From assembly GCF_000427965.1 (NCBI RefSeq), contig NZ_ATZA01000029.1, positions 1-36,795 on the forward strand: a DNA stretch of 36,795 nt, read 5' to 3'. The translations under genes were made by a program, and so were the position numbers. Under the pieces are notes generated by a model. That model saw only the letters and a list, made by a program, of their open reading frames with translations. It was not told where the DNA came from and ran no database searches. Positions 1-24,501 of this stretch are shown here, piece by piece. Source of the DNA: Olivibacter sitiensis DSM 17696 (GTDB taxonomy: Bacteria; Bacteroidota; Bacteroidia; Sphingobacteriales; Sphingobacteriaceae). Within the stretch, counting starts at the first letter, position 1. Each line of letters begins with the position of its first letter.

Positions 1-396
1 ATGCTCTTCATGCGCAAGCTGGAAGAGGGAAAGCAGGCCGATGGCCTGCGCAAGGCACTGGTGGAGATGCTCTTGCCCTACAGGGAATGCGTCCACACCA
101 TCACCTCCGACAACGGCACCGAGTTCGCCCGGCACAAGCTGATCGCAAAGAAACTGAAGGCCGATTTCTTCTTCGCACACCCCTATTCCTCCTGGGAAAG
201 GGGTACCAACGAGAACACCAACAAGCTCATCAGGCAGTACATACCAAAAAAACAGTCGTTTGACGACTTCAACTGGCAGGATATCAGAAATATACAGTAC
301 AAAATCAATGCAAGACCAAGAAAAAAACTAGATTACCAAAACCCCAAGAGCATTTTTTATGCTACCTTAGACCAAAATGTTGCATTGGTGAGTTGA
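1..396 (+). CDS. IS30-family transposase, C-terminal part (cut by window edge)
   Basis: This is the C-terminal 131 residues of a DDE transposase, which would catalyse cut or copy of its own IS element. Two catalytic acids of the DDE triad are visible: the Asp in TSDNGTEF (residue 37) and the Glu in ERGTNENTNK (residue 71). They have 33 residues between them, the D(33)E spacing typical of IS30. The N-terminal helix-turn-helix and the first Asp must lie upstream of the window, so the ATG at position 1 is probably internal. The first 250 bases are richer in G+C than the DNA that follows, which fits a mobile element. Whether the full element is intact cannot be seen. Confidence 0.88.
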   Translation: MLFMRKLEEGKQADGLRKALVEMLLPYRECVHTITSDNGTEFARHKLIAKKLKADFFFAHPYSSWERGTNENTNKLIRQYIPKKQSFDDFNWQDIRNIQYKINARPRKKLDYQNPKSIFYATLDQNVALVS

Positions 397-3533: not shown

Positions 3534-4637
3534 TTATACCCCTTTAAAATATACGGTACTTACGGTTTCTGCCTGCTGAGGGGTGCCGTTATAGCTGTAA
3601 TCCACTTTTTCTTTTGGATCGGCTATGCAAATACTGGTATAGGCATTGCCGATATCCAGCCCTATAGCTTGATTTGCCAAACCAGGGCCACACCACTCCG
3701 CAGATCGGAGGTAGTAGCCAATACTTGCTATTTGTTCGGCATTTTCCGGTACGATGACCTTCAATATGTCTTCAAACTCGGCCTTGAAGAGCTCGACCAA
3801 TTGCGGATAGCGTGCCCCACCACCTACCAAATAGATGCGGTCTGTCTTTTCAAAATCGAGATCGGTAAAGGCTTTCTTTAGGGTAGGTGAAATAACGTCA
3901 TTGTAGTAAGAGTCGATTTGCGTTCTCTTCAGTTCTACCAAATCCTTTTTCTTTCGGTTCAGCACTATGCTGCCCTGTTGAAAGTTTTGGTTGATCATAT
4001 GTTCGTTTTTCATGCCCAGGTTAAACTCGCGGCTTAGCTCGTTTTTTAGGCCGTTAACTGCGTAGCGAAGTCCAGCTACGCTCATACAGGTCCTTGTCAC
4101 TAGGTTACCACCCGCGCACAAACCCGTTTCGCAGGTGCCATAGCCCAAGCTGACAATGAAGAAATTACCTTTTTCTGCCGTGCTTCCTTTGCGAATGGCA
4201 TTGATACAGCCCATGATTTCGGGCATCACGTCCAGGTGCTTTACCGTTACCTGCATGCGCTTTTTGGTATTTGCAAGCCCGTCATAACTTCCAGCCGTAT
4301 AGTCGATGAAAAGATCCTTCTCGGTAAAAAATTTAACAGCTTGCTGTTTATATAGCTCATAAGTCGTATAGGGGAAGCCGGTGGTAATGGCCACTTCGCC
4401 AGATGTGCCAGCTAGTGCCAATAGGATGCCTGCCTTTGCCAGCAGTTGATAATCCGTGTCTTCTGGCGAGCTGTTTATATTGCGATAGGGCGAAAGACCT
4501 TCCGATAAAGCGAGCTCACCTACCAAATAAGTTTGACGATCCTCGATAAGCTCAATTTGCCTTTCTTCAATTTTTGGTTGCAATAATAGGGGCTGGTTAT
4601 GGTGTTCGATGACACTGGGAATGTTGAAAAACTTCAT
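3534..4637 (-). CDS. ParM/StbA-like actin-fold ATPase with circularly permuted motif order
   Basis: This 367-residue protein has the motifs of the ParM/Alp7 branch of bacterial actins, but in rotated order. It begins with IPSVIE (6-11) and TYLVGELA (36-43), which in normal relatives follow the first phosphate loop. Then come TTGFPY (85-90), a phosphate-2-like segment VSLGYGTCETG (162-172) and the adenosine motif YLVGGGARYP (269-278). The phosphate-1 loop GLDIGNAYTS (326-335), normally at the N-terminus, lies 32 residues before the C-terminus. An in-frame stop precedes the ATG, so no N-terminal loop has been missed. The phosphate-2 Asp is replaced by Ser163. By family knowledge it could form nucleotide-dependent filaments; whether it does is inference. 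It is divergent from the M23-bactofilin operon. Confidence 0.8.
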   Translation of the reverse strand: MKFFNIPSVIEHHNQPLLLQPKIEERQIELIEDRQTYLVGELALSEGLSPYRNINSSPEDTDYQLLAKAGILLALAGTSGEVAITTGFPYTTYELYKQQAVKFFTEKDLFIDYTAGSYDGLANTKKRMQVTVKHLDVMPEIMGCINAIRKGSTAEKGNFFIVSLGYGTCETGLCAGGNLVTRTCMSVAGLRYAVNGLKNELSREFNLGMKNEHMINQNFQQGSIVLNRKKKDLVELKRTQIDSYYNDVISPTLKKAFTDLDFEKTDRIYLVGGGARYPQLVELFKAEFEDILKVIVPENAEQIASIGYYLRSAEWCGPGLANQAIGLDIGNAYTSICIADPKEKVDYSYNGTPQQAETVSTVYFKGV

Positions 4638-4900: not shown

Positions 4901-5761
4901 ATGAAGAACAACCCAAAGAGTTCAAAATCGAGTAAATTAACCGTTCTTATGCTGGATGATCACCTGGCATCGGAAAAAATGTTACAGGTGCCAAAAAAAA
5001 TGTTGCTTTACTGGAGGCACTACACCTTTGCGATAATCGGTATTTTTCTTTTTTTGGGTATTTCTATTGCATGGTGTACCAGCAGGCTTTTGAGCTTGCA
5101 TGAAGATAAAGAATTGTTGAGGAAAAAGTTGGAGTATGCCAAGGAAAAGAATAAGACGCCCAATATGGAGGAGGTGAGGAGCAAGATGGAAAAGCTGGAG
5201 TCGAAATTGGAAGGCGTTACGTCATATCTACGAGAACGAGGAGTGAAAAACAATGGGTTGGAAGGTGGAAAAGGAGGTGAATCCTTTGAACTTACCCTGG
5301 AAAATGTAGACGAAGTATTGGATAGTTATGGTTTTTATATTGATAATATCCACCATGATTTAGTTGGTATACCATTGGGTTTTCCCGTAAAGGGCGTGAT
5401 GACAAGTGGTTTCGGTGTAAGGAAGAATCCTTTTTCAGGCAGTGGCTATGAAGTTCATACTGGCGTAGACTTGAAGGCGAACAAGGGGGACAAGGTACGC
5501 TCCCCGGCCAATGGTAAGGTGGTGTTTGCTGGCTGGAAGGGGGGCTATGGCAATTGCGTAATTATTCAGCATACTCACGGGTATGAGACATTATATGGGC
5601 ATTTATCCAAAATTGAAGTGAAATCCGGTAAGCAGGTAAAGGTAGGGGAAACCATAGGCTTGGTCGGCTCTACAGGACGCTCTACCGGAGCACATCTCCA
5701 TTATGAGATAAGTAAACAAGGGAAAAGATTGAATGCTGCTACTTTTTTAAAGAACAATTAA
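4901..5761 (+). CDS. Membrane-anchored M23 family metallopeptidase
   Basis: This is a probable peptidoglycan endopeptidase of the LytM/M23 type that would cut peptide cross-links in the periplasm. It has a basic cytoplasmic N-terminus (1-38), one membrane segment (about 41-66), a charged coiled-coil region (67-112) and the M23 domain (about 160-282). The zinc ligands are all present: H186 and D190 in EVHTGVD, and H267 in AHLHYE, with H234 (YGHLS) and H265 as the usual catalytic histidines, so it is likely active rather than a degenerate LytM regulator. The bactofilin gene starts 2 bases after its stop, which implies one transcript. Pairs of M23 peptidases and bactofilins control local wall remodelling and cell shape in several bacteria. 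Confidence 0.92.
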   Translation: MKNNPKSSKSSKLTVLMLDDHLASEKMLQVPKKMLLYWRHYTFAIIGIFLFLGISIAWCTSRLLSLHEDKELLRKKLEYAKEKNKTPNMEEVRSKMEKLESKLEGVTSYLRERGVKNNGLEGGKGGESFELTLENVDEVLDSYGFYIDNIHHDLVGIPLGFPVKGVMTSGFGVRKNPFSGSGYEVHTGVDLKANKGDKVRSPANGKVVFAGWKGGYGNCVIIQHTHGYETLYGHLSKIEVKSGKQVKVGETIGLVGSTGRSTGAHLHYEISKQGKRLNAATFLKNN

Positions 5762-5763
5762 TT

Positions 5764-6168
5764 ATGCTATTGTCAAACAACGAAAAAAAACGAAGTAAAG
5801 ATCAAGGAAGCCATCAGGAATTGACGATTATTGGAAAAGATTGCCTTATTAAAGGCGACTTGTCATCGGATAAGCCTGTGCGTTTGGACGGAAAGGTAAT
5901 TGGACTTGTAAAGGTAGAGGAAAGTTTGATTGTTGGCTCAGAGGGTGTGATAGAGGGCGACGTTGCTGCCAAGCATGTTATTATCTTCGGAAAGGTTGCG
6001 GGCAACATTACATCCGAAAAATTGGAAATCCGTGCTGAAGGAAAAGTGCTCGGCAATATCGATAGCAAGTTGATTGAAATGGAGGCTGGCGCACATTATG
6101 TTGGCGAGATGAAAATTGGCGCTTCTGAAGACGTCTCCGAGCCCGGAGTTATTTCCTTGAATAAATAG
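5764..6168 (+). CDS. Bactofilin
   Basis: This 134-residue protein belongs to the bactofilin (DUF583/CcmA) family, nucleotide-independent cytoskeletal proteins that polymerise as stacked beta-helices. Residues about 20-120 show the repeating pattern of short beta strands separated by Gly and Asp/Asn, for example IKGDL, LDGKVIG, VIEGDVAA, IFGKVAGNI and KVLGNI. The first 18 residues are polar and disordered, rich in Lys and Ser, and may bind the membrane or the partner. It follows the M23 peptidase gene by 2 bases and is almost certainly co-translated with it. By comparison with Helicobacter CcmA and its M23 partner, it probably positions the peptidase; that role here is inferred. Confidence 0.9.
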   Translation: MLLSNNEKKRSKDQGSHQELTIIGKDCLIKGDLSSDKPVRLDGKVIGLVKVEESLIVGSEGVIEGDVAAKHVIIFGKVAGNITSEKLEIRAEGKVLGNIDSKLIEMEAGAHYVGEMKIGASEDVSEPGVISLNK

Positions 6169-23152: not shown

Positions 23153-23692
23153 CTAGTTTTGCCGTTCAAAGAAACTAAAAGAGGAATAACCGTACTTTCT
23201 TTGCTCCTTAAAATGTGGGTGGTGATCTACTTTTTTCATTGTAGGATGTTCCAATATGAAAATCCCGTTAGGGCTTAGCAGCTCCTTGTCAAAAATAAGT
23301 TGCGGCAATTGCGTTAGTTGGGGAAGGTCATAAGGGGGATCGGCGAAAATAAGATCATACTGTGCATGGCCTCGCTGCAAGAATTTGAATACGTCATCCT
23401 TGACTATCTGAATGTTTTTCAAATCGAATTTGCTTACAAGATTTTTCAAATGCGCACAGCACTTACCGCTTTTGTCTACAGCACAAATTGCTCCGGCTCC
23501 TCTAGAAGCAAGCTCCATCATGATATTGCCCGTGCCGCTAAAAAGGTCAAGCGCAGAACACCCTTCTATCTCCATGCGATTGTTTAGGATATTGAAGAGC
23601 GATTCCTTGGCCAGGTCCGTAGTGGGCCTCACAGGCAAACCTTTGGGGACATGCAGTACCAAGCCCCTGTATTTACCGCCTATTATACGCAT
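23153..23692 (-). CDS. rsmD: 16S rRNA (guanine966-N2)-methyltransferase RsmD
   Basis: RsmD methylates G966 of 16S rRNA on the assembled small subunit. The 179 residues show MRIIGGKYRGLVL, VRPTTDLAKESLFNIL, the SAM-binding ALDLFSGTGNIMMELASRGA, and the catalytic DPPY in DLIFADPPYDL. It overlaps the end of the upstream DUF3822 gene by 10 bases, so the two are translationally coupled. The grouping DUF3822-rsmD followed by coaD is, as I remember, common in this part of the Bacteroidota. Confidence 0.95.
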   Translation of the reverse strand: MRIIGGKYRGLVLHVPKGLPVRPTTDLAKESLFNILNNRMEIEGCSALDLFSGTGNIMMELASRGAGAICAVDKSGKCCAHLKNLVSKFDLKNIQIVKDDVFKFLQRGHAQYDLIFADPPYDLPQLTQLPQLIFDKELLSPNGIFILEHPTMKKVDHHPHFKEQRKYGYSSFSFFERQN

Positions 23693-24501
23693 AAGGTCAA
23701 GCCAAATAAACTGAAAAATCGATGCGGCTCTGGGAGTTGGCTCGGAAGCTCTTGGTCTATAAAAGCGTTGGGAGATGAAAACCGGACTTCTTTATTGTAT
23801 TTTTTGCAGCGGAGGTAGTACTCATCGCCAGAGGAAATGCTGCCAGAAAGTGAAAGTACGATGTCTTCGAGCTGGATGCCCAATTCTTGGGCGCAGCTTA
23901 GCAGGAAATAGTTGAACTCATCTACATCGTTGTTCGGAAACTGGGAGAAAAAGATCAATTGCCCATCTTGGATGTAGATAAACTCCGTGAATTTGCCTGC
24001 GAAATTGATGTAGAGCGAAGCTTGGTCATTGACCGACGATGCCAATACCGCATTCAGAAAGGCAGAAGCAGAAGCAACGATCTTTTCTTTGGGAAAGGCA
24101 TTGTGAACCTGATCTGAACGCTTGTTTTCAAGTCCAGAGATGACCACTATTTTCTCATGGGGAATGTGATCTACATGCAACAAATGCGTTGACTTATCAA
24201 GTCCGAGTATGGGGTAGAGGTCATCTAGATGTTCTAGGTCAAACAGGTCTTGAGGTACCAAGGTGCTCGGCTGTAGCTCCAAACTCACCTTCCTAGAGAC
24301 ATATTGGAGTGACAATATATGGTCCACCCGGGAGTCCCTATCCTCACCTTGCCATTGCAACATTAAGCGCAAATGTTGTTCTGGGCAAAAGATAGCCATA
24401 GAATAGGCGTCGCCAATCAATTGCAAGGCCAAATGGCAGTTTTCTGCGTGGCTTACGGAAAAGCCCTCGTCTATGTAAGGAATGTGTAAAGATTCGCTCA
24501 T
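23683..24501 (-). CDS. DUF3822 family protein
   Basis: This 272-residue protein matches DUF3822, a Bacteroidota family of unknown function. There is no signal peptide or membrane segment. Two similar halves can be seen: an N-terminal part with CHLALQLIGDAYSMAIFCP and a C-terminal part with ASLYINFAGKFTEFIYIQDG followed by IVLSLSGSI, a pattern that recalls the duplicated actin-like (ASKHA) fold of PilM-type proteins. That fold assignment is inferred. It overlaps rsmD by 10 bases, and a complete promoter (24509-24540) ends 7 bases before its ATG. It is divergent from the RecD-like helicase. Confidence 0.8.
   Translation of the reverse strand: MSESLHIPYIDEGFSVSHAENCHLALQLIGDAYSMAIFCPEQHLRLMLQWQGEDRDSRVDHILSLQYVSRKVSLELQPSTLVPQDLFDLEHLDDLYPILGLDKSTHLLHVDHIPHEKIVVISGLENKRSDQVHNAFPKEKIVASASAFLNAVLASSVNDQASLYINFAGKFTEFIYIQDGQLIFFSQFPNNDVDEFNYFLLSCAQELGIQLEDIVLSLSGSISSGDEYYLRCKKYNKEVRFSSPNAFIDQELPSQLPEPHRFFSLFGLTLCV

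Follow-up and report, generated by a model that had tools for sequence, protein, structure and literature searches.

A circularly permuted family of actin-like proteins in Bacteroidota, often encoded next to a bactofilin

The 36,795-nucleotide stretch of Olivibacter sitiensis DSM 17696 analysed here (hereafter, the window; contig NZ_ATZA01000029.1, positions 1 to 36,795) encodes a circularly permuted actin-like protein, in which the hairpin that carries the phosphate-1 (P1) loop lies at the C-terminus of the chain. All actins known to us start with this hairpin. The permutation is well supported, and the evidence comes close to showing that the permuted chain rebuilds the actin nucleotide pocket. 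In the reading that we prefer and consider reasonably probable, the protein is an actin-like ATPase that polymerises and acts with bactofilin scaffolds.

The original prediction located the gene correctly at 3534-4637, and it is read on the minus strand, from 4637 down to 3534 (Table 1). In the 367-residue product, the P1 loop GLDIGNAYTS (residues 326-335) follows the adenosine motif, of which VGGGA forms residues 271-275, both exactly where they had been claimed to lie. The ATG is preceded by four open codons and then by a stop (stop-to-stop frame of 371 aa), in agreement with the earlier argument that an in-frame stop speaks against a missed N-terminal copy of the loop; this stop, together with the 46 relatives described below, rules out a truncated gene or a missed start. 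The permuted actin is single-copy in the genome (E 0.001 or better). Elsewhere in the window, on the minus strand at 23683-24501, a 272-aa protein resembles a degenerate actin fold by eye, with a look that we take to be of the DUF3822 type.

Table 1. Features of the permuted actin locus in the Olivibacter sitiensis window.
Feature	Position	Strand	Basis
Circularly permuted actin-like protein, 367 aa	3534..4637	-	ORF; ALP_N; AlphaFold2; Foldseek
New N-terminal strands, residues 2-13	4599..4634	-	match strands after canonical residue 20-25 in structure alignment
Glu140, putative catalytic glutamate	4218..4220	-	E in 46/46 members
Phosphate-2 loop SLGYGTCETGLC, residues 163-174	4116..4151	-	aligned with Hsp70 phosphate-2 loop
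Adenosine motif IYLVGGGA, residues 268-275	3813..3836	-	G272 and G273 in 46/46
Relocated β1/phosphate-1 loop/β2 hairpin, residues 324-338	3624..3668	-	model strands, invariant residues, ALP_N gain
Disordered C-terminal tail, residues 346-367	3537..3602	-	pLDDT <50
M23 peptidase, divergent from actin gene	4901..5761	+	PF01551, E 2.4e-36
Bactofilin	5764..6168	+	PF04519, E 1.6e-24; sole PF04519 match found in genome

The order of the motifs is the same throughout the family. G-x-D-x-G-N is C-terminal in all 46 non-identical relatives (49 family ORFs minus three identical ones), and a second, N-terminal P1 loop, which the original prediction had named as a feature that would speak against permutation, is present in none of them. 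Each chain starts just before the PS-x-x-E region, with merely 6-8 residues before the column of residue 7, and ends 2-29 residues after the residue-338 column. G326, D328, G330 and N331 of the hairpin, G272 and G273 of the adenosine motif, and the glutamates E140 and E170 are invariant in all 46. A recheck of all loci added two full-length members outside this set, L049 and L050, both of which are permuted as well, so that the homologues share the motif order; two pieces that end at a contig or locus end (L066 and L123) lie outside the permutation count.

A protein search found the family in 16 of 201 Sphingobacteriaceae genomes, the window's own included, with identities of 57-59% for one genus and 40-43% for other genera, and a scan of the contigs of named genomes, aimed at close relatives, gave six loci. 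A profile search detected the family in 17 of 300 genomes at the level of the order and in 24 of 395 at that of the phylum, the latter from 12 of 171 genera and including some outside the window's class; the matches cover nearly the whole permuted model, except for a contig-end piece in G674 (positions 6-48).

Rotation of the sequence provides a further line of evidence. The Pfam profile ALP_N matches the natural window protein with 40.9 bits (E 3e-10) over profile positions 21-148 of 148, and when the hairpin is moved to the front, the score rises by 11 bits to 52.1 and the match extends over positions 1-148. Ten control prefixes, namely, the shuffled hairpin (40.6 bits), a further six shuffles and three segments taken from elsewhere in the window protein, yield 40.1-41.1 bits, from profile position 16-18. 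The same holds for the relative L013 (43.8 bits natural, 52.8 rotated and 43.2 shuffled); another relative, L009, is not matched by ALP_N in any arrangement. Upon rotation, the MreB_Mbl score increases from 11.9 to 17.3 bits, and the shuffled hairpin leaves it at 11.9; the Hsp70 score is unmoved (16.6 natural, 16.6 rotated and 16.0 shuffled). MreB-like_C, Hsp70 and MreB_Mbl all match the natural protein more weakly than ALP_N, under their own cut-offs (27 bits in the case of MreB_Mbl). ALP_N is matched at E 0.001 or better by 35 of 40 members and missed by the other five. Among 198 genomes of the phylum, all seven ALP_N matches begin at profile position 16-21, such that no linear ALP_N protein was seen in a search that overlooks some members (it gave no match for the genome of the window, although hmmscan finds one); 14 named control genomes yielded one ALP_N match, under the cut-off. 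Against PDB sequences, the natural family profile gives weak matches (best E 0.01), and a rotated profile, for which 7 of the 19 aligned sequences were used, shows no gain (best E 0.043), an outcome of little information that weighs slightly against the permutation.

The moved part comprises just about 20 residues, so one could think instead of an actin-like protein that has lost its N-terminus and has a C-terminal GLDIGN by chance or as part of something unrelated. This explanation is largely refuted and appears highly improbable: none of the ten control prefixes reproduces the ALP_N gain, the C-terminal motif is kept in 46 of 46 members, and a confident C-terminal β-hairpin is present in both structural models.

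These AlphaFold2 models represent the window protein (pLDDT 84.4, pTM 0.84, from 19 aligned sequences) and a distant member, L070 (pLDDT 90.8, pTM 0.90, from 40 aligned sequences with 35-51% identity to L070); the hairpin consists of strands 324-329 and 333-338 in the former, and of strands 318-323 and 327-332 in the latter. The best Foldseek match of the window model in the PDB is Ta0583 (E 5.6e-16), and residue 1 of the model corresponds, in structure alignment, to residue 20-25 of Ta0583, ParMs, Alp7A and actin. With VIA-align, model residues 1..322 superimpose on residues 23..364 of Dh-cParM1 (Z 28.0, rmsd 3.0 Å over 306 residues), 1..315 on 20..325 of Ta0583 (Z 25.0), and 1..318 on 25..355 of actin (Z 21.3). 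The aligner is apparently sequential; with ParMs, Ta0583 and actin, the alignment halts before the C-terminal hairpin, and with some Hsp70 chains, it extends to residue 349-367. For the L070 model (Z 27.5), the alignments among the matches listed stop at model residue 309-316. Both models align with ParMs, Ta0583, MreB, Hsp70 and actin, with Z 20.6-28.0 among the matches listed. In the models, the C-terminal hairpin would occupy the place of β1-β2 in the fold. A search of BFVD with the L070 model recovered phage and other viral matches with an actin/Hsp70-like fold, the best structural neighbor being Gp506 of Bacillus phage G (BFVD G3MAP7, E 6.1e-19).

Thus, the rotation test, the 46 relatives and the two models bear out the central claim of the original prediction, that this is a ParM-like actin with the β1-P1-β2 hairpin at the C-terminus. 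Its corollary, that a difference in subdomain boundaries and filament contacts is unavoidable, is not supported: the cut falls in the short β2-β3 turn, and the rest of the chain can be aligned with most of the length of ParM, Ta0583, MreB and actin, so that the contacts could be kept.

The permuted protein most likely binds ATP. The catalytic role of Glu140 is presumed by analogy with ParM and MreB. In the phosphate-2 loop, positioned by alignment with Hsp70, G165, G167 and E170 are invariant. An actin-like phosphate-2 loop typically carries an Asp at the first acidic position; the window protein has Ser in this position (residue 163) and Glu at the last acidic position, and across the 46 members, residue 163 is S in 43, G in 2 and N in 1. 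The best row in the PDB profile search, 1nge, which we take to be a D199S mutant, also has Ser at this place, and the other Hsc70 row listed has Asp. Because the Asp is replaced in all members, ATP hydrolysis may be slow, weak or lost.

This replacement might also fit a slow or non-hydrolysing switch, that is, a non-polymerising, ATP-sensing protein with a permuted actin fold, used in the manner of Hsp70 or FtsA to recruit or load either bactofilins or enzymes of the envelope. Below the ParM-like rows, Hsp70 and actin obtain similar scores, and at four loci (L097 and L099-L101), the neighborhood has no bactofilin but, as named by eye, a response regulator, a membrane protein and a glycosyltransferase-like protein. 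However, judging by structure titles, the proteins with the nearest folds form filaments (ParM, CorM and BeeR), and no member varies in the P1 Asp, the putative catalytic Glu or the adenosine glycines; we therefore consider such a switch a minority option of some, rather low, probability.

The commonest gene following a permuted actin encodes a bactofilin: in 21 of the 41 neighborhoods, a bactofilin gene comes directly after the actin gene in the same orientation; in three more, a single TPR gene intervenes, and 17, the window's included, have no adjoining bactofilin. The 41 neighborhoods are 36 stretches plus six from named genomes, minus L020, which repeats L096; the count leaves aside G472, G704, G674 and several close Sphingobacteriaceae copies and includes a stretch of just 4.2 kb from G464. 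Bactofilins were called with a profile built from the clustered neighbors, and all seven of the 21 next-gene bactofilins that were scanned match Pfam PF04519. The distance from the actin stop to the nearest possible bactofilin start is at most 30 bp in 12 of the 21 and about 1 kb in L080. These bactofilins span seven family groups (f1, f8, f17, f22, f24, f35 and f36), and the last residue is W, F or Y in all 21, compared with none of 21 other bactofilins (nine from the same neighborhoods and 12 genome-wide); one further linked bactofilin, in G098, ends in WW.

Several linked bactofilins (L070, L091, L094, L095 and L102) start with an M-x-x-x-F-K-like stretch. These starts resemble the N-terminal membrane-targeting motif of bactofilins (PMC12448750), and with such a stretch at the N-terminus, the bactofilin tail would stay free; in the same paper, a bactofilin tail is the docking site of a client (BacP-PadC).

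Bactofilin neighbors occur in both deep and shallow branches of the actin tree, and the 18 of the 21 linked members that are on the tree require 4 changes, against a mean of 12.9 after shuffling. In four genomes carrying a permuted actin (G205, G252, G294 and G315), a genome-wide search found no bactofilin match, which, together with the 17 unlinked neighborhoods, indicates that bactofilin is not needed in every lineage. At L097 (2253-6653), L099, L100 and L101, the response regulator gene is upstream of the permuted actin, and the membrane protein, the glycosyltransferase-like protein and a TPR protein are encoded downstream, all named by eye; of the respective genomes, G205, G252 and G294 have no bactofilin match and G135 has one elsewhere. 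In L079, L081 and L085, a TPR gene separates the permuted actin from a bactofilin that lacks the aromatic end, and the genes after this bactofilin resemble, by size and order, an F-type ATP synthase operon. Two Parapedobacter genomes, G086 (L017 and L004) and G098 (L018 and L006), encode two permuted actins each, one window-like and the other flanked on both sides by bactofilins, the downstream one ending in WW.

The window protein belongs to a clade of eight rows (support 100/100), which also includes Parapedobacter, Sphingobacterium alkalisoli and G315 sequences and has no downstream bactofilin neighbor. Beside the actin gene of the window, an M23 peptidase gene and a bactofilin gene adjoin each other, and the same divergent pair flanks L089 and L104. 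The retention of this pair makes loss of the downstream bactofilin in the clade the simplest account on this unrooted tree. Elsewhere, an M23 peptidase/bactofilin pair is a local module for shaping the cell wall. The tail after the residue-338 column is 17-29 residues long in the eight members of the clade and 2-19 in the other 38. The disordered tails of the clade have a short hydrophobic end (SAFLSE, SEFLEG and STVYFKGV are examples), which perhaps replaces the missing bactofilin tail.

The fold likeness to ParMs (Dh-cParM1, with Z 28.0, being the closest) could mean that the protein is a chromosomal DNA segregation protein of the ParM type, permuted by happenstance, that moves DNA via an unrecognised adaptor; chromosomal ParMs exist (PMC12270681). 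Several observations make this unlikely. No match to the permuted actin was found among 72,556 plasmid and 50,697 phage records, and 27 stretches of viral contigs fitted the pattern, none of which was confirmed as a relative. Direct repeats are absent from four of five flanks, the fifth (L095) having three weak two-copy AT-rich families, and the commonest next gene is a bactofilin. A mobile-element origin was rejected on the basis of the same plasmid, phage and viral-contig searches.

We return to a permuted actin-like ATPase that polymerises and works with bactofilins, a reading suggested by the neighbors and the folds and limited by the genomes without bactofilin. The old C-terminal helix would lead through a short linker into β1-P1-β2, and the chain would now open at β3, so that the actin fold and its nucleotide pocket would be rebuilt with new ends in the β2-β3 turn of subdomain IA. 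The protein would bind ATP and polymerise as other actin-like proteins do. Its partner in the 21 neighborhoods would be the bactofilin encoded just downstream, the flexible tail of which would dock on the actin-like protein by its aromatic end and tie it to the membrane-bound bactofilin scaffold; in the clade of the window, this neighbor is absent, and the actin gene of the window lies divergent to the M23 peptidase/bactofilin pair. The data show the permuted sequence and its conservation, the predicted fold, the neighborhoods and the aromatic ends of the bactofilins; the position of the hairpin within the fold, ATP binding, polymerisation, contact with the tail and a function in shaping the cell or patterning its wall are what we infer. 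More tentatively, and with less than even confidence, we envisage a two-cytoskeleton machine, in which the permuted actin ATPase was ancestrally paired with a dedicated bactofilin, the aromatic C-terminal peptide serves as a docking or end-capping signal, and ATP-driven polar and nucleotide-free non-polar filaments jointly place cell-wall enzymes. Because the P1 hairpin forms a C-terminal arm on a short linker, its exchange between neighboring subunits is conceivable, and such exchange could make filament assembly and nucleotide binding a single event.

A widespread natural permutant implies that the P1-first order of actins is not needed. The permuted family is a natural experiment on the importance of particular ends and hairpins in assembly and hydrolysis and provides free termini, located at a new surface, to which tags can be attached; a recurrent pairing with bactofilin would join two cytoskeletons that are usually the subject of separate studies. 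Profile searches and sequential structure searches see permuted actins as truncated, so the family may have been overlooked. Neither a natural permuted actin nor an actin-bactofilin pair appears among the literature matches listed, which cover titles and abstracts of open-licence papers; a prior description is possible.

Among known systems, the bactofilin-M23 module in which LmdC is bound (BacA-LmdC; PMC10945521) resembles the adjoining M23 and bactofilin genes beside the actin gene of the window, but no actin-like member beyond the general actin (MreB) cytoskeleton is named in the accessible text of that paper. Strong MreB_Mbl matches to separate proteins are present in all seven genomes tested, so the permuted actin is an addition to MreB. 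BeeR of Verrucomicrobiota and CorM of Anabaena have the same fold as the window model (Z 22.0 and 25.1, respectively), and the alignment starts at their residue 60-61, so that both have residues upstream. ParM systems carry ParR, whereas the commonest next gene of the permuted family encodes a bactofilin. For a chromosomal ParM system, a cParR is described (PMC12270681). At the N-terminus, members of the permuted family lack the first 15-20 positions of the Pfam ALP_N profile (PF17989), and with the P1 loop N-terminal in 0 of 46, the family is classed as a permuted relative rather than an ordinary ALP/ParM member. With ParMs (Dh-cParM1, PDB 8x1i) and archaeal Ta0583 (2fsj), it shares the actin fold, beginning at canonical residue ~20 and continuing through the last helix, and retains the P1 loop, the adenosine motif and a conserved Glu; it differs from them in that the first ~20 canonical residues sit at the C-terminus and Ser, Gly or Asn takes the place of the phosphate-2 Asp.
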